The notes beneath the pieces are model-generated. The model searched no databases. It was not told the DNA's origin and saw nothing but the letters and a program-made list of their open reading frames with translations. DNA of 64,000 bases from the NCBI GenBank assembly GCA_001630475.1, contig KV419433.1, positions 1 through 64,000 of the forward strand, written 5' to 3'. Of this stretch, positions 37,770 through 45,414 are shown piece by piece; the stretch's first letter is position 1, and every line of letters begins with the position of its first letter. Source of the DNA: Sistotremastrum niveocremeum HHB9708 (Eukaryota > Basidiomycota > Agaricomycetes > Sistotremastrales > Sistotremastraceae). The position numbers were made by a program, and so were the translations under genes.

Positions 37770-39646
37770 TTATGTCGTACGCGATTTCTTCCAGAATCGC
37801 GTCGTGTAGTCGTCTTTGAAATCCACCATCCGGAGCATTGCGACGTTGCTCGTGACGCTCGAGAACTAATGCACATCATACATCAGATGAGGGAAGAAAG
37901 GATGAAGGAGAGAGACGTACCCCGTTACCAATGAAAGCCTCTGCCCTCCTCGCAATCTCCATATCAACAGCAACACTCGCCATTTTCTCTTCCCTGCTCT
38001 CCATCACCACCTCCGGACTCAAAGTATGCACAACATTCTCCCATCCATCCGCGAGAATCATCTCCTTAAATTTATCCAAAAAGTCCAACTGGCCATTGGA
38101 CATGATGTATACATTCTTCAATGATCCTTTCGTGTAATCCCGGACTTCGCGGAGCTTTTCAAGCATTTGTTCTTCGGTTGGCCAACAGTGACGGAGGACG
38201 TTTGCGTGGTCTTCGTCGGATGGATAGCCGGATCTGTCGAGTTGGGAGTCGGGGAGGGCAGGAACCATTGCCCAGACGTTATATGGGAGGCCCCATTTAG
38301 CGAGATTGTGACAATGACCCTGCATATATGATTAGACAGCGTAAATTTGAGACCGAGTGAATTGGCGTACCTGATAATCTCCTCTCCGGACGGCAATGAC
38401 GAGGAGACCGGGGATGGTGTACTTCGTCCGTGGATCGGGCACTTTCCAAGATTCGGGCATCGAGGCCATGCGGTGGACGTAGCGTTCGTAGACCCAGTTA
38501 ACCATAGGTGCCCACATGAATTCGGTCAATACGGGTGATTTGGAGATCTCCTCCCAAATCGACACGATCTTGACATTATCCATGAGCCTGAGAAAATAGA
38601 TTAGACAGAGAATATAAAGAAGGTCGAATAAACGCACTTGAAGTCGAAGAGACTCGATCCAGTCATCTCCACACACCTCTCTTTACCCTCAGGATCAGGC
38701 TGCGTCAGCCGCTCTACCCACTTGTCGATCACGAGAGCTCCTTCATCGTCACCAGGAGCGCCAAGACCCATTTTCTTCCCTTCTATCGCGGTGTTAAATT
38801 GTATGCGTTCCGCGCGGGGACAAACTTGATGCCAGAAGAATTGATTAATGGAACGTGGAGCGCGGTACGTCTCGTTCGTCCAGGGAAAGGGGGCGCCAGC
38901 TGCGGGGCCGGCTACCATGTGCGTTAGAGGATATCCCGGGGCTGGATATCCGATGTCTCGGAATGCGTAGGAGCGGTTGGCACGGTGAGAAAGGTAAGCG
39001 TTGAGTATGAGTTCTTCGAGCTGAGTATAGTAAAGGTAAGACAACGAGGAAAAATGAACGAGAAAAGTGACTTATTTATTGAAACCCATGTGGATGTATT
39101 GATTAAGGAAAGTGATGTAGCGTCCTGTTCTTCCTTCTGGGAAAGGAAGATCAAGGTTGTGCTGTGGCAGAGCATCCTCGCGTTGACGGACGCATTCTAG
39201 ACTGAAGTTTTTGGGATGGAAACAGGAGGCGGGCGCCCAACGGCTCTCTTCGTCGACGTCGACGCTCGGTGGCATAGCTATCGATTCTGCGCGTATAAAC
39301 TCAGTTTTTCGACCTGCAGACTGATCGGTGATGTCGTACCTGAAGTGTCGACCTTGCAAAGTATAAGACCAATCATGAGGCCTACTGATAAGAAGCCAAG
39401 GCCAATACTCGTCCACATCCATATTCGATGTTCAGGAATCTCTGAAAAAGCATCTAGCCGTCGTCTGCTCGTCGACGTCGACAGCTGCTCTCCATTTTCC
39501 TGCTCCCGTAAATCGTCGACTGAGGTATTTCCGGTGCCTTCCTCAGCGCTGTCTTGCTCGCTAGAATGTCTGGGTAGGAGGTCGTATTTTTCCTCAGCGT
39601 GCTCTGAGGGGGGGCCCTTATTGAAGAGCGACTTGAGAAACGACAT
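37770..39646 (-). CDS. O-fucosyltransferase-like type II membrane protein, paralog A
   Basis: Six minus-strand exons (39646-39340, 39277-39076, 39024-38638, 38587-38371, 38319-37921, 37865-37770) join to 535 aa. An N-terminal cytosolic tail (MSFLKSLF...KYDLLPRHSS) precedes one membrane anchor (IWMWTSIGLGFLSVGLMIGL), so the protein should be Golgi/ER-lumenal. The lumenal part has GRYITFLNQYIHMGFNNQ, like the Gly/Asn-rich first motif of protein O-fucosyltransferases. It also has VIAVRRGDYQGHCHNL, like their RRxD motif, and a C-terminal EAFIGNGFSSVTSNVAMLR. I infer a GDP-sugar glycosyltransferase of the GT-B fold; donor and acceptor are unknown. Joining exons 2 and 3 requires an AT-AC intron (39025-39075). 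It is one of three paralogs in 8 kb. Confidence 0.75.
39025..39075 (-). other. AT-AC intron in paralog A
   Basis: The intron starts ATAAGTCACT and ends TACTATAC. No GT donor can be placed before the in-frame TAA that would otherwise follow GFNK. With the AT-AC boundaries the protein reads GFNNQLEEL, as in the two paralogs. The donor ATAAGT fits a U2-type AT-AC intron rather than the U12 ATATCC consensus. Confidence 0.8.
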
Positions 39647-40645
39647 GGCGGATGGGGTGGTTAGGGTGAAACGAGGATAAGGAGGAAAATCGCGTCGCCT
39701 AATTTTGTCCGGTATTACTGTTTCCTGTCTCGGAGCGGACTTCGGAGATGGTGTGCCTGAGACGGCCGCACAGACTTTGAATTGGTTTAGCCTTAGACGC
39801 TCAGTTCTGGGCTTCAGGGTCTTGTAATTTCAGATGGGGATGTTCAACTTGTTTTTCTACTCTACACTATTTGCCAATAGGAGCCCAACTCATTAGAGAG
39901 AGGAGTGTACAATGACTAGGTCAAAATCTCCTAAGTGGAATTTAATATAATCTTATCAGTCTATTCCGACTCCGAATAATGGACGTTACGTAAGACGTCG
40001 ATCAGAGTGATCGAAGCAATGCGGATCGTTTCGGATGCCGGAAGAGCAGAAGTCGGAAGCAACGTTGTCTCGCATCGACCAATGAGCCCTTCTGTGAGAA
40101 TGGTGCCGCGAGCAAGGTGCAAGTCTACCTTGTCAGAATGCCGTCTCCGCATGTCATGGTCGGCTGATTGACTTGAGCGCTGAATTTTCGTCCAAGGCTT
40201 CCTTGGCAGCTCGTGCTGCTCGTCAACAAGAAGATCGACAGAATGATGGTCTGCATTTTGTTCTTGATTCTTGAATTGGAGACCTATTTAAAACTAGCAC
40301 CGAAGACAAAGTGGGCCTAACAACAGGGAGGCCGAGAAACGAAAGATGATCGATGATCTTCGACCCTATTTTAATTGAGTGCGCCGTGCGCCGCGGGCAC
40401 CAATGCCGCGTATGTACCTGTCATTTCACATCCATATCATTGATTTGATGCCGTGAAGTGAAGCCTATTCAAGGTCGAAATGTACTCGAAATATGTGAAG
40501 TGAAAGACGATGAATGCGTTAGAAAACAAGATAGCAAGAAAGTATACGAACGGAATGATAGCAAAAATAAACACACACACAAATCAACCTCCGTGATACA
40601 CAGCTTACCTCGACGGGAGCGCCTCAAAAAGATCAAGAATAACAG
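39647..40645. other. intergenic DNA between paralogs A and B
   Basis: About 1 kb that should hold the promoter of paralog A (read leftward) and the 3' end of paralog B. No supported gene or repeat is present. Confidence 0.4.
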
Positions 40646-42569
40646 TTACACCCGACGTGATTTCCTCCAAAACCGTGTCGTATAGTCATCCCTATGATCT
40701 ACCATCCTCAGCATAGCCACATTGCTCGTCACGCTCGAGAACTAATTCCTTATCAGCAACTAATATATACGAGAATCATGAGAAAAGAGCGTACCCCATT
40801 CCCAATAAACGCCTCCGCCCTCCTCGCGATTTCCATATCAACAGCAACACTGGCAAAGTTCTCTTCCTGCGAAACCATCCTCACCTCCGGACTCAACGTA
40901 TGAACAACATTCTCCCAACCGTCCTCCAATAACATCCCCTTAAGATCTTCCAAATATTGTTCATCGCCGTTCGACATGATGTAGACGTTCTTTAATCTCC
41001 CGTCTGTATAGTCTCGGACTTGACGCATCTTTTCCATCATTTGGGATTCGGAAGGCCAACAGTGTTGCATAAATTTTTCGTGCTCTTCTTTAGAGGGAAA
41101 GTCGGATCTGTCGAGTTGGTCTGGGAGGGTCGGAACCATTGCCCAGAGGTTGAAGGGATAACCGGCCCAAGCGAGATTATGGCAGTGACCCTACAAGATT
41201 TATGAGGAAGAGAGGTGAATGTAAGGAGTGACGTACGGAGAAGTCTCCTCTGCGAATGGCAAGGACGAGAAGACCGGGAATCGTATATTTCGTCTTTGGA
41301 TCGGGGATCTCCCATGAGTCGGGCATAGACGACATTCGATGAACGAAACGCTCGTAGACCCAATTGACCATAGGCGACCACATGAACTCCGTCAATACAG
41401 GTGACTTTGAGAGTTCCTCCCATATCGAAACGACCTTCACATTATCCATCAATCTTCACGGCACATCAATCTCGGCACCCCATAAGATATCAATATAACT
41501 CACTTGAAATCAAAAAGACTCGAAGAAGTGATCTCCACACATCTCTCCTTACCCTCCGGATCACTCCTCGTCAATCTCTCAACCCACTTCTCAATCACCA
41601 AAGCTCCCTCATCTTCGCCGGGTGCACCAAGACCCATCAACTTTCCCTTATTCTGAGTATGTAATTGTACCCTCTCCGCTCTCGGGCAGACTTGATGCCA
41701 AAAGAATTGATTCACAAAACGGGGAGCTTGATATCCATCACTCGTCAGGGGGAATGGTGCACCGGATATCGTCCCGCCGATCATTTGAGAGAGGGGATAT
41801 GCGGGTGTTGTCGAGCCGTGGGGTTGGCCTATGTCTCTGAAAGCGTATGAACGATTTGAGCGGTGTGAGAGATATGCGTTTAGGATTAATTCTTCTAGTT
41901 GAGTAAGAGCAGGTCAGCGCGGTGCTTGCGTATATGAGGAGAGAACTTATTTGTTGAAGCCTTGGTGGATGTATTGGTTTAGGAATGTTATGTATCGCCC
42001 TGTTCGGCCTTCGGGGAATGGAAGATCGAGGTTATGTTGAGGGAGGGCATCTTCGCGTTGACGAACGCATTCGATGCTGAAATTCTTTGGATGAAAACAA
42101 GATGCCGGTGACCACTGTTCTTCCTCTTGCTCAGAGATCATCGATGAGGTCGGCAAATTGATATCTATCTCGTCCCGTTCAGCCATTCGGAGAGTAAGAA
42201 AGGGGAGGACGTACCATGAGTGTCAATATTACAGACTATGATTCCAACCATCAATCCGAAGGATAAAAATCCCAGCGCGAGACTCGTCCACATCCATATT
42301 CGATGGTCAGGAATATCCTCATAAACTTTGGTCCGCTGCAAGCGAGAGGGCCAGCGCGAGGTTGGATTTAGAGCCCGTAACGTCGACTCAGGATGCTCAT
42401 CATGTCCCTCGCCCGCGTCCAGGACCTCATCCTCCTCCGGTGAATCTTCGTCCTCATGTTGTTCAGGTGAATGTCGAAGGAGAAGGTCATATTGCTCCTC
42501 CTTATCCTCAGATTCTTCACCTCTCTTCGTAAAGAGAGACTTTAAGTCGAAGAATGACCGAAAAAGCAT
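40646..42569 (-). CDS. O-fucosyltransferase-like type II membrane protein, paralog B
   Basis: Six minus-strand exons (42569-42215, 42164-41951, 41902-41504, 41453-41237, 41190-40795, 40741-40646) join to 558 aa. The layout is the same as paralog A: an acidic cytosolic tail with YDLLLRHSPEQ, an anchor IWMWTSLALGFLSFGLMVGI, then GRYITFLNQYIHQGFNNQ, VLAIRRGDFSGHCHNL and EAFIGNG. The first ATG of the conserved MLFRSFFDLKSLF start is used; an ATG 78 bases upstream is also in frame. Exons 2 and 3 are joined by an AT-AC intron (41903-41950). Here the base after the AC makes TCAA, so no AG acceptor is available at all. Intron positions match paralogs A and C. Proposed function and caveats are as for paralog A. 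Confidence 0.75.
41903..41950 (-). other. AT-AC intron in paralog B
   Basis: The intron starts ATAAGTTCTC and ends CTGCTCTTAC. The downstream exon begins TCAACTAGAAG, which lacks the AG that could mimic a normal acceptor in paralogs A and C. This makes it the strongest of the three cases. A branch-like gctgacc lies 9-15 bases upstream of the end. Confidence 0.85.
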
Positions 42570-43534
42570 GGTACATGGGGATGTTATCAGTGAGGGTCGC
42601 TGAGCGCCAGGCACGAGACATCTTGATTCTTGATGGTATAGGTTCACTAGAACGCTTTCACAAGCATCTGGGGGCCCTCGGAGCGCATCTCGGAGGACCT
42701 ACTCCTTGCCGGGTTATCCTATTCCCGGAGTTTGGACCGAATCTGAGGAATCTTCACAAAGTCCGGAACCATGATTTATTTTAGCTGACAGGCGATTTTG
42801 AGCCTGCTACAATTTCAAAGTAACGGAGAGCCGGGCTTCGGAATCAAATGACCGAAGTCTTGCAGTCATAATTAATAAGTATGGCGCGTGCTTGGTTGCT
42901 AACAGCTGTGTTCCACGAAACGAAGCTGAGATGCATGACCATGTTGCATAATATTTTGTACGAAAATCCTGCCACACGTTAGAGCATCACACAAGGATAG
43001 GGTTCCAGCAGAGTCAGCTGAGTAGAGCACATTGCCACTATCTCAAAGGGAAGAGAAGAAGCCTGAAGAGCAACGAAGTTCTCACAGGCTTATCACAAAT
43101 GGCTGTCAGGACCGCCACTCCTTCTTTTGCTTCCGTATTCCGAAAGGAACGTTCTATGATCGCGTGCTTACATACTCTTCCGAGTTAGGCTCGGCCGGTG
43201 ATCGGGGTTTTGCCGCCGTCGGGTTTCGGGTGTTCCAAAATGAGCATATCAGGTTCCAGATAGGAGAGGCAGTATTCCTAGTCATGAGTAGAAAACCTGC
43301 CTATAAGCCTCCTATTTCTTCGTCAACACTAATTTAAAGCCTTGAAGAAGGCAAGATGCCAGTCGGAGTTTCGGAAGTGTCTAGACCGTAGCGCCAAGGC
43401 TAAATCCAAACGTGTAATTCGGGGATCTAAGACATCCGAGAGCCGCTCCGAGACAGGAAATACCGTCAATACTACCGTGCTTATCCTCGTTTCGCCCTCA
43501 CACCGCCCTAATCGGCCTAACAACCCGTCCCACC
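42570..43534. promoter_or_regulatory. divergent promoter region between paralogs B and C
   Basis: 965 bases separate the start codons of two divergently transcribed paralogs, so both promoters lie here and could share regulatory sites. No TATA box is clear on either side. The 101-codon plus frame at 43032-43337 has no support. Confidence 0.4.
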
Positions 43535-45414
43535 ATGTCGTTCCTCAAGTCGCTTTTCAAAACGCGCACATCGACAGAGGTCACCGAGGAAAAATATGAC
43601 CTCCTACCCAGACATTCTACCGACCAAGACAGCGCTCACGAGGGCAGTGGCGAGGCCTCTGTCGACGATTTACGCCAAGATGAGCAGCATGGAGAGTCTC
43701 AGTCGACGTCTAGAGGCCTAAGACGGCTGAAACTCTTTTCTGATCTTCCTGATCATCGAATATGGATGTGGACGAGCATTGGGCTTGGGTGTTTGTCTGT
43801 TGGCTTGACCGTTGGGCTTATTGTATGCCAGATCAAGACTCCAGGTACGCGTTGATGAACTCTTTTTGCTGCTCGATTGTCTCAATTTTGATGCAGACTC
43901 CATTGCCTCTACACCCAGCCCTGTTCTGAATGAAGAAGAGCGATGGGCGCCCACGTCATGTTTCCATCCCAAAAAATTCAGCATCGAATGCACTCGTCAA
44001 CGAGAAGACGCTCTCCCTCAGCACAATCTCGACCTTCCCTATCCCGAAGGCCGCACAGGTCGCTACATCACATTTCTTAACCAATACATCCATCAAGGCT
44101 TCAATAAATAAGTCTTCCTTCTTTATCTCTTCGTTCTCAGACTGACTTGTCTTCACTCAGCTAGAAGAACTAATACTTAACGCTTACCTTTCTCACCGCT
44201 CAAACCGCTCTTACGCATTCAGAGATTTTGGCAATCCACACGGCACATCAACACCCGCCTACCCCCTAAACTATATGATCGGTGGAACTACTGCCGGTGC
44301 CCCCTTTCCCCTGACACAAGATGGATATCAAGCTCCACGATTTATTAATCAATATTTTTGGGAACAAGTTTGTCCGCGAGCGGAGCGTGTTCAACTTAAT
44401 ACACAAGTTGAGGGGAAGCTCATGGGCCTTGGGGCTCCGGGAGAGGATGAAGGTGCACTCGTGATTGATAAATGGGTCGAGAGGTTGACGAGGCCGGATC
44501 CTGAGAATAAGGAGAGATGCGTGGAGATGACATCATCCAGTCTCTTCGACTTCAAGTGAGTTTATCTTCCTTCACGTCTTAAAAGCGATTTAAGTTGCGG
44601 CTTCAGGTTGATGGATAATCTCAAAGTCGTCTCGATATGGGAAGAACTCTCTAAATCGCCCGTTTTGACGGAGTTCATGTGGTCACCTATGGTCAACTGG
44701 GTTTACGAACGTTATGTTCACAGTATGGCTTCGATGCCCGATACTTGGCAAATCCCTGATCCCAAGACCAAATACACAATCCCAGGTCTTCTCGTCGTCG
44801 CCATCCGCAGGGGTGACTTTTCCGTGTGTACTGTATCTGCCGCTCCATCCCCGTAATCTCATCTATTATTTAGGGGCATTGCCATAACCTTGCTTGGGGT
44901 GCTCTCCCTTTCAACTTATGGGCCATGGTACCCGCACTTCCCGATTCCATGGACCGTTCCGACTTCCCTTCAAAAGAAGACCACGACAACGTCATGCGTC
45001 ACTGTTGGCCCACTGAGGAACAGATGATGGAGAAGATGCGCGAAGTCCGTGATTACACCGGCGGATCGTTGAAGAATGTTTATGTCATGTCGAATGGGAA
45101 GGAGGAATATCTTGAGAAGCTCAAGTCACTTTTGCTCGAAGATGGATGGGAGAACGTTGTTCATACGCTGAGTCCTGAGGTTAAGATGGTCACTTTCGAG
45201 GAAGAGATGGCTAGTGTCGCTGTTGATATGGAGATCGCAAGAAGAGCAGAGGCATTCATCGGCAACGGGGTGCGTTTGCATGTCACGCTTCCTCGCTTCA
45301 TGCTAACTTATATTATAGTTCTCGAGTGTGACTAGTAATGTTGCCATGTTGAGGATGATGGACTACAAAGACAACTTCACCACACGCTTCTGGAAGAAGT
45401 CGCGTCTCACATAA
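43535..45414 (+). CDS. O-fucosyltransferase-like type II membrane protein, paralog C
   Basis: Six exons (43535-43844, 43897-44107, 44157-44555, 44607-44823, 44874-45269, 45319-45414) join to 542 aa. The start MSFLKSLFKTRT and tail YDLLPRHSTDQ match paralog A, followed by the anchor IWMWTSIGLGCLSVGLTVGL. The lumenal domain has RYITFLNQYIHQGFNNQ, VVAIRRGDFSGHCHNL and ARRAEAFIGNGFSSVTSN. Exon 5 (396 bases) matches B, and exons 4 and 6 have the same length in all three paralogs. Exons 2 and 3 are joined by the AT-AC intron at 44108-44156. It is divergent to paralog B and probably arose by inverted duplication. I infer a Golgi/ER glycosyltransferase of unknown specificity. Confidence 0.75.
44108..44156 (+). 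other. AT-AC intron in paralog C
   Basis: The intron starts ATAAGTCTTC and ends TGTCTTCAC, 49 bases. There is no GT in the last 25 bases of the preceding exon that could act as donor in frame. The join gives GFNNQLEEL, identical to the paralogs. A branch-like gactgac lies 10-16 bases upstream of the end. Confidence 0.8.

Follow-up and report, generated by a model that had tools for sequence, protein, structure and literature searches.

Within the first 64,000 nucleotides (nt) of contig KV419433.1 of the basidiomycete Sistotremastrum niveocremeum HHB9708 (hereafter the window), three O-fucosyltransferase-like genes, A, B and C, each appear to be interrupted at the same codon by an intron that begins with AT and ends with AC. 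A fourth gene of the same genome, D, carries an equivalent intron. Very probably A, B, C and D owe this AT-AC intron to their common ancestor and depend on the ordinary U2-type spliceosome for its removal. The intron is best classed with the U2-type AT-AC introns, which are already known; the unusual part would be the strength of its conservation in a fungus.

Boundaries of the AT-AC introns

The three introns in the window are listed below; in each case the letters were checked and the split is the only one that gives the conserved peptide GFNNQL.

39025..39075, minus strand: AT-AC intron of gene A, 51 nt; donor ATAAGT at 39070-39075, acceptor AC at 39025-39026
41903..41950, minus strand: AT-AC intron of gene B, 48 nt; donor at 41945-41950, acceptor at 41903-41904
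44108..44156, plus strand: AT-AC intron of gene C, 49 nt; donor at 44108-44113, acceptor at 44155-44156

To define these boundaries, every pair of positions removing at least 30 nt across the site was enumerated in A, B, C and D. One split per gene rebuilds GFNNQL, and in all four genes it is ATAAGT...AC. The joint reads AA/ATAAGT...AC/T in A, B and C (slashes mark exon-intron junctions) and AA/ATAAGT...TTTAC/CCAG at the same codon of D, where the intron is 50 nt long. Lengths of 48-51 nt compare with 46-55 nt for the 12 sister introns of A, B and C. Left unspliced, A, B and C read GFN followed by AAA TAA, with the conserved QLEEL returning some 50 bases downstream; the unspliced product ends GFNK-stop in all four genes, D included. 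The original prediction, which had placed the three introns at exactly these coordinates, joined GFNN to QLEEL by ATAAGT...AC and pointed to the in-frame TAA that follows directly if the intron is kept, agrees with the letters on each count. It also remarked that gene B has no AG at the acceptor side; there the first AG past the junction ends 8 nt downstream.

Two other ways of removing the segment were tried and rejected. If the AT is kept as donor and the first AG is taken as acceptor, the frame is lost in four of four genes; if the GT at +4 serves as donor with the first AG as acceptor, translation stops after GFNK, again in all four.

If the demand for the peptide is dropped, many splits keep the frame open (681 in A, 362 in B and 362 in C), and among them are one GT-AG split in A and two GC-AG splits in each of B and C. 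Splicing could then use canonical GT-AG or GC-AG ends elsewhere, at the price of a shorter protein. We regard this as highly improbable. The option in A differs from those in B and C in both place and type, and the donors are weak (TGG/GTTTCA, AAG/GCTTCA). All five splits delete the GFNN motif, in which the G and the two N residues are invariant across all eight paralogs described below. In gene D no split of at least 40 nt with GT-AG or GC-AG ends stays open; when ends are limited to GT-AG, GC-AG or AT-AC at that length it has four open splits, all of them AT-AC.

The immediate stop in the unspliced frame is also what would be seen if the segment were retained and all four genes were truncated or dead. 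The coding sequence argues the other way, and we hold this reading to be extremely improbable: protein-level constraint is strong on both sides of the intron, with nonsynonymous divergence (dN) among A, B and C of 0.15-0.21 against synonymous divergence (dS) of 1.67, 3.40 and infinite (out of range), and the downstream exons of all three genes are open to the end.

The complete gene models, each open with a single stop at its end, are as follows.

37770..39646, minus strand: gene A, O-fucosyltransferase-like, 6 exons, 538 amino acids
40646..42569, minus strand: gene B, O-fucosyltransferase-like, 6 exons, 558 amino acids
43535..45414, plus strand: gene C, O-fucosyltransferase-like, 6 exons, 542 amino acids

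GT-AG ends fit all 12 remaining introns (four per gene) and yield full open reading frames, in keeping with the earlier claim that the other introns of these genes are ordinary. For intron 1 of A, B and C many ends are possible, some of them AT-AC, and those adopted are the ones favoured by donor consensus and homology; in gene C, introns 4 and 5 could also take alternative GT-AG or GC-AG ends. The window contains 155 N bases.

Splice signals and the spliceosome

All four copies begin with AT, end with AC and have the donor ATAAGT, with the G at +5 that is a feature of major-class donors; this is the combination that characterizes U2-dependent AT-AC introns, a class whose removal is the work of U1, U2, U4, U5 and U6. 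A U12-type intron is recognized by a donor RTATCC and a branch site CCTTAAC. The donor here is ATAAGT in four of four, as the original prediction had stressed in setting it apart from the U12 form ATATCC, and the motif near the acceptor is CTGAC in three copies and CTTAC in one. Those in the window, located by motif search, are putative branch sites.

39036..39040, minus strand: branch-like CTTAC of gene A, its A 12 nt before the intron end
41913..41917, minus strand: branch-like CTGAC of gene B, its A 11 nt before the intron end
44142..44146, plus strand: branch-like CTGAC of gene C, its A 11 nt before the intron end

A YTNAC motif with its A 11-12 nt from the end is thus present in all four introns, and the interval between motif and AC is free of AG. 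Intron bases 1-6 and the last two bases are identical in the four copies; bases 7-24, in a gap-free alignment, show 11-56% pairwise identity.

An intron of U12 type with a drifted donor, still removed by the minor spliceosome, would be compatible with the AT-AC ends and with a branch-like motif at this distance from the acceptor. We consider it very unlikely: neither donor nor branch-like motif has the U12 form in any of the four copies, and a genome search with RNA families matched U6 in five places and U2 in eight, with no match to U12, U4atac or U6atac (U11 was not searched for). This search takes up a check that the original prediction had named, a look for minor small nuclear RNA (snRNA) genes, and answers it in part, U1 having been missed too and U11 lying outside it. 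The eight U2 matches are all dispersed on contig C6 (389996-858216, both strands), and one is far weaker than the rest (73.4 versus 119-123 bits). Donor type, together with U2 and U6 found in the absence of U12, U4atac and U6atac, points to the major spliceosome; it is a lean, not proof. The literature tends the same way: passages of two reports state that Ascomycota and Basidiomycota have no convincing minor introns (PMC10639083) and that U12 splicing is missing in Basidiomycota (PMC2846911).

Several observations weigh against removal by the major spliceosome. The AT-AC junctions are predicted from genomic sequence. The branch motif is short, and each AT-AC intron contains a second YTNAC. 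Among the 12 sister GT-AG introns, YTNAC at 11-13 nt from the end occurs in just one; seven have a motif at that distance, but only under the looser form YTNAY, and three lack any such motif in the stretch 6-25 nt from the end. The general Rfam model of U1 likewise had no match in the genome, and in 14 control genomes there was no match to any of the RNA families searched for. Since U2 and U6 are clear while U1 is unmatched, U1 may be diverged here; given the missed U1 and the empty controls, the missing minor snRNAs prove little. Cutaneotrichosporon oleaginosum is a basidiomycete. In this one fungus minor snRNA genes have been reported, according to a passage of PMC7072748, which also speaks for a U12-type intron.

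Were the major spliceosome to act on these introns, as we think very likely, donor positions +2 to +6 (TAAGT, the major-class consensus) would be read by U1 and then by U6, and U2 would mark the branch site, the CTGAC or CTTAC whose A is 11-12 nt from the end of the intron. During the second step the first-base A would pair with the last-base C, so that AC is chosen and the CAG four bases beyond it in A, C and D is skipped. Exact removal would restore the codon of an invariant asparagine in the motif G-x-N-N; failure would leave the TAA within the donor and a truncated protein. Because reversion to GT-AG needs both end bases to change nearly together, the AT-AC form may have been trapped and passed on through the duplications. 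Such trapping has been proposed for U2-type AT-AC introns with G at +5 (PMC2831892, in part), and in yeast, which has no minor spliceosome, AT-AC ends were second only to GT-AG in efficiency in a mutated intron (a passage of PMC6726248). On the strength of these two sources the proposed mechanism appears reasonable. A bolder version, that the intron arose as AT-AC in a lineage lacking the minor spliceosome, became fixed in this form because two bases would have to change, and is now a built-in switch in which poor splicing leaves the donor TAA, so that enzyme output of the family depends on second-step acceptance of AC, we think unlikely.

Paralogs and probable inheritance of the intron

Comparison of protein C with its own genome gave 27 matches, which group into eight genes: A, B and C, and one each on contigs C3, C12, C9, C85 and C53. 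The gene on C3 (locus L028) is gene D, which shares 47-49% identity with A, B and C across 192-196 codons. The four more distant paralogs have no AT-AC intron and read G-W-N-N or G-L-N-N uninterrupted. Three residues (G53, N55 and N56 in the numbering of the first alignment row) are invariant in all eight paralogs, and the codon of N56 is the one that the AT-AC intron splits.

In a tree of the eight proteins the four carriers are separated from the other four genes by a branch with support 100/99. The tree was rooted at the midpoint, D and the C53 gene are flagged as long branches, and some alignment rows were partly assembled by eye. As the carriers make up one side of a branch, a single origin is the simplest explanation, and the intron of A, B, C and D was probably inherited from one common ancestor. 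These data do not distinguish gain in that ancestor from loss in the four non-carriers. Donor and acceptor have remained unchanged although synonymous sites among A, B and C are near saturation. With a carrier on another contig, carriers grouped at 100/99 and relatives that lack this intron and read through the motif, the earlier proposal that the intron predates the duplications is supported.

At three of the distant paralogs (loci L029, L030 and L031) a GT-AG intron starting GTACGT fits shortly past the G-W-N-N codons, 15 nt downstream of the AT-AC site and in the same phase; the fourth has no intron at that place. It is as if an intron had slid, or had been gained twice nearby, and sliding of such a neighbour may have given rise to the AT-AC intron.

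Protein family, significance and known systems

As a whole protein, the product of gene C scores 26.9 bits against the O-FucT family PF10250, below the curated cut-off of 31.5, and the match covers only profile positions 224-323 of 326, the C-terminal part; at E values up to 1, all eight paralogs match PF10250. A profile search gave eight weak matches, among them Toll-like receptor 3 (E 0.2, 0.21 and 1) and O-fucosyltransferases 2 and 1 (E 0.36-0.81, over the C-terminal part), and a single-protein search of solved structures gave no match. The motif G-x-N-N-Q may correspond to the GDP-fucose loop of known O-fucosyltransferases. No relatives were found among 112 pattern matches in bacterial and archaeal genome contigs, nor among 2 and 118 pattern matches in viral contigs; these nulls mean little, because the collections are not meant to hold fungi.

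A single AT-AC intron traceable across several duplications, in a fungus that probably depends on the major spliceosome alone, is a natural test case for first- and last-base pairing and for the trap idea. It is plausible that automatic gene models of this O-fucosyltransferase-like family are split or truncated at the intron. One survey finds AT-AC so rarely in fungal annotations that it would rank it there as a minor non-canonical type (a passage of PMC7072748). Among the matches listed in a limited literature search, titles and the starts of abstracts report no AT-AC intron conserved across the members of a gene family in fungi.

The U2-type AT-AC class is small, and its best-studied members lie in animal sodium-channel genes. 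Sodium-channel introns such as SCN4A intron 21 are removed by the major spliceosome and share with those described here the AT-AC ends, the G at +5 and the presence in several genes of a family (PMC2831892, in part); unlike them, ours are about 50 nt long, belong to a fungal glycosyltransferase-like family and have a splicing pattern predicted from sequence. Caenorhabditis elegans seems to have no minor snRNAs and yet has probably at least 42 AT-AC introns, in the account given in a passage of PMC3033335. For the basidiomycete Phakopsora pachyrhizi, two non-U12 AT-AC introns have been predicted from expressed sequence tags; the table passage that lists them is silent on conservation in a gene family (PMC2846911). 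Another comparable system is budding yeast, in which an AT-AC protointron and alternative AT-AC junctions are joined by a fungal major spliceosome (PMC6726248, in part). The S. niveocremeum introns differ from the yeast case in that AT-AC is the sole form giving the protein, and is so in four paralogs.
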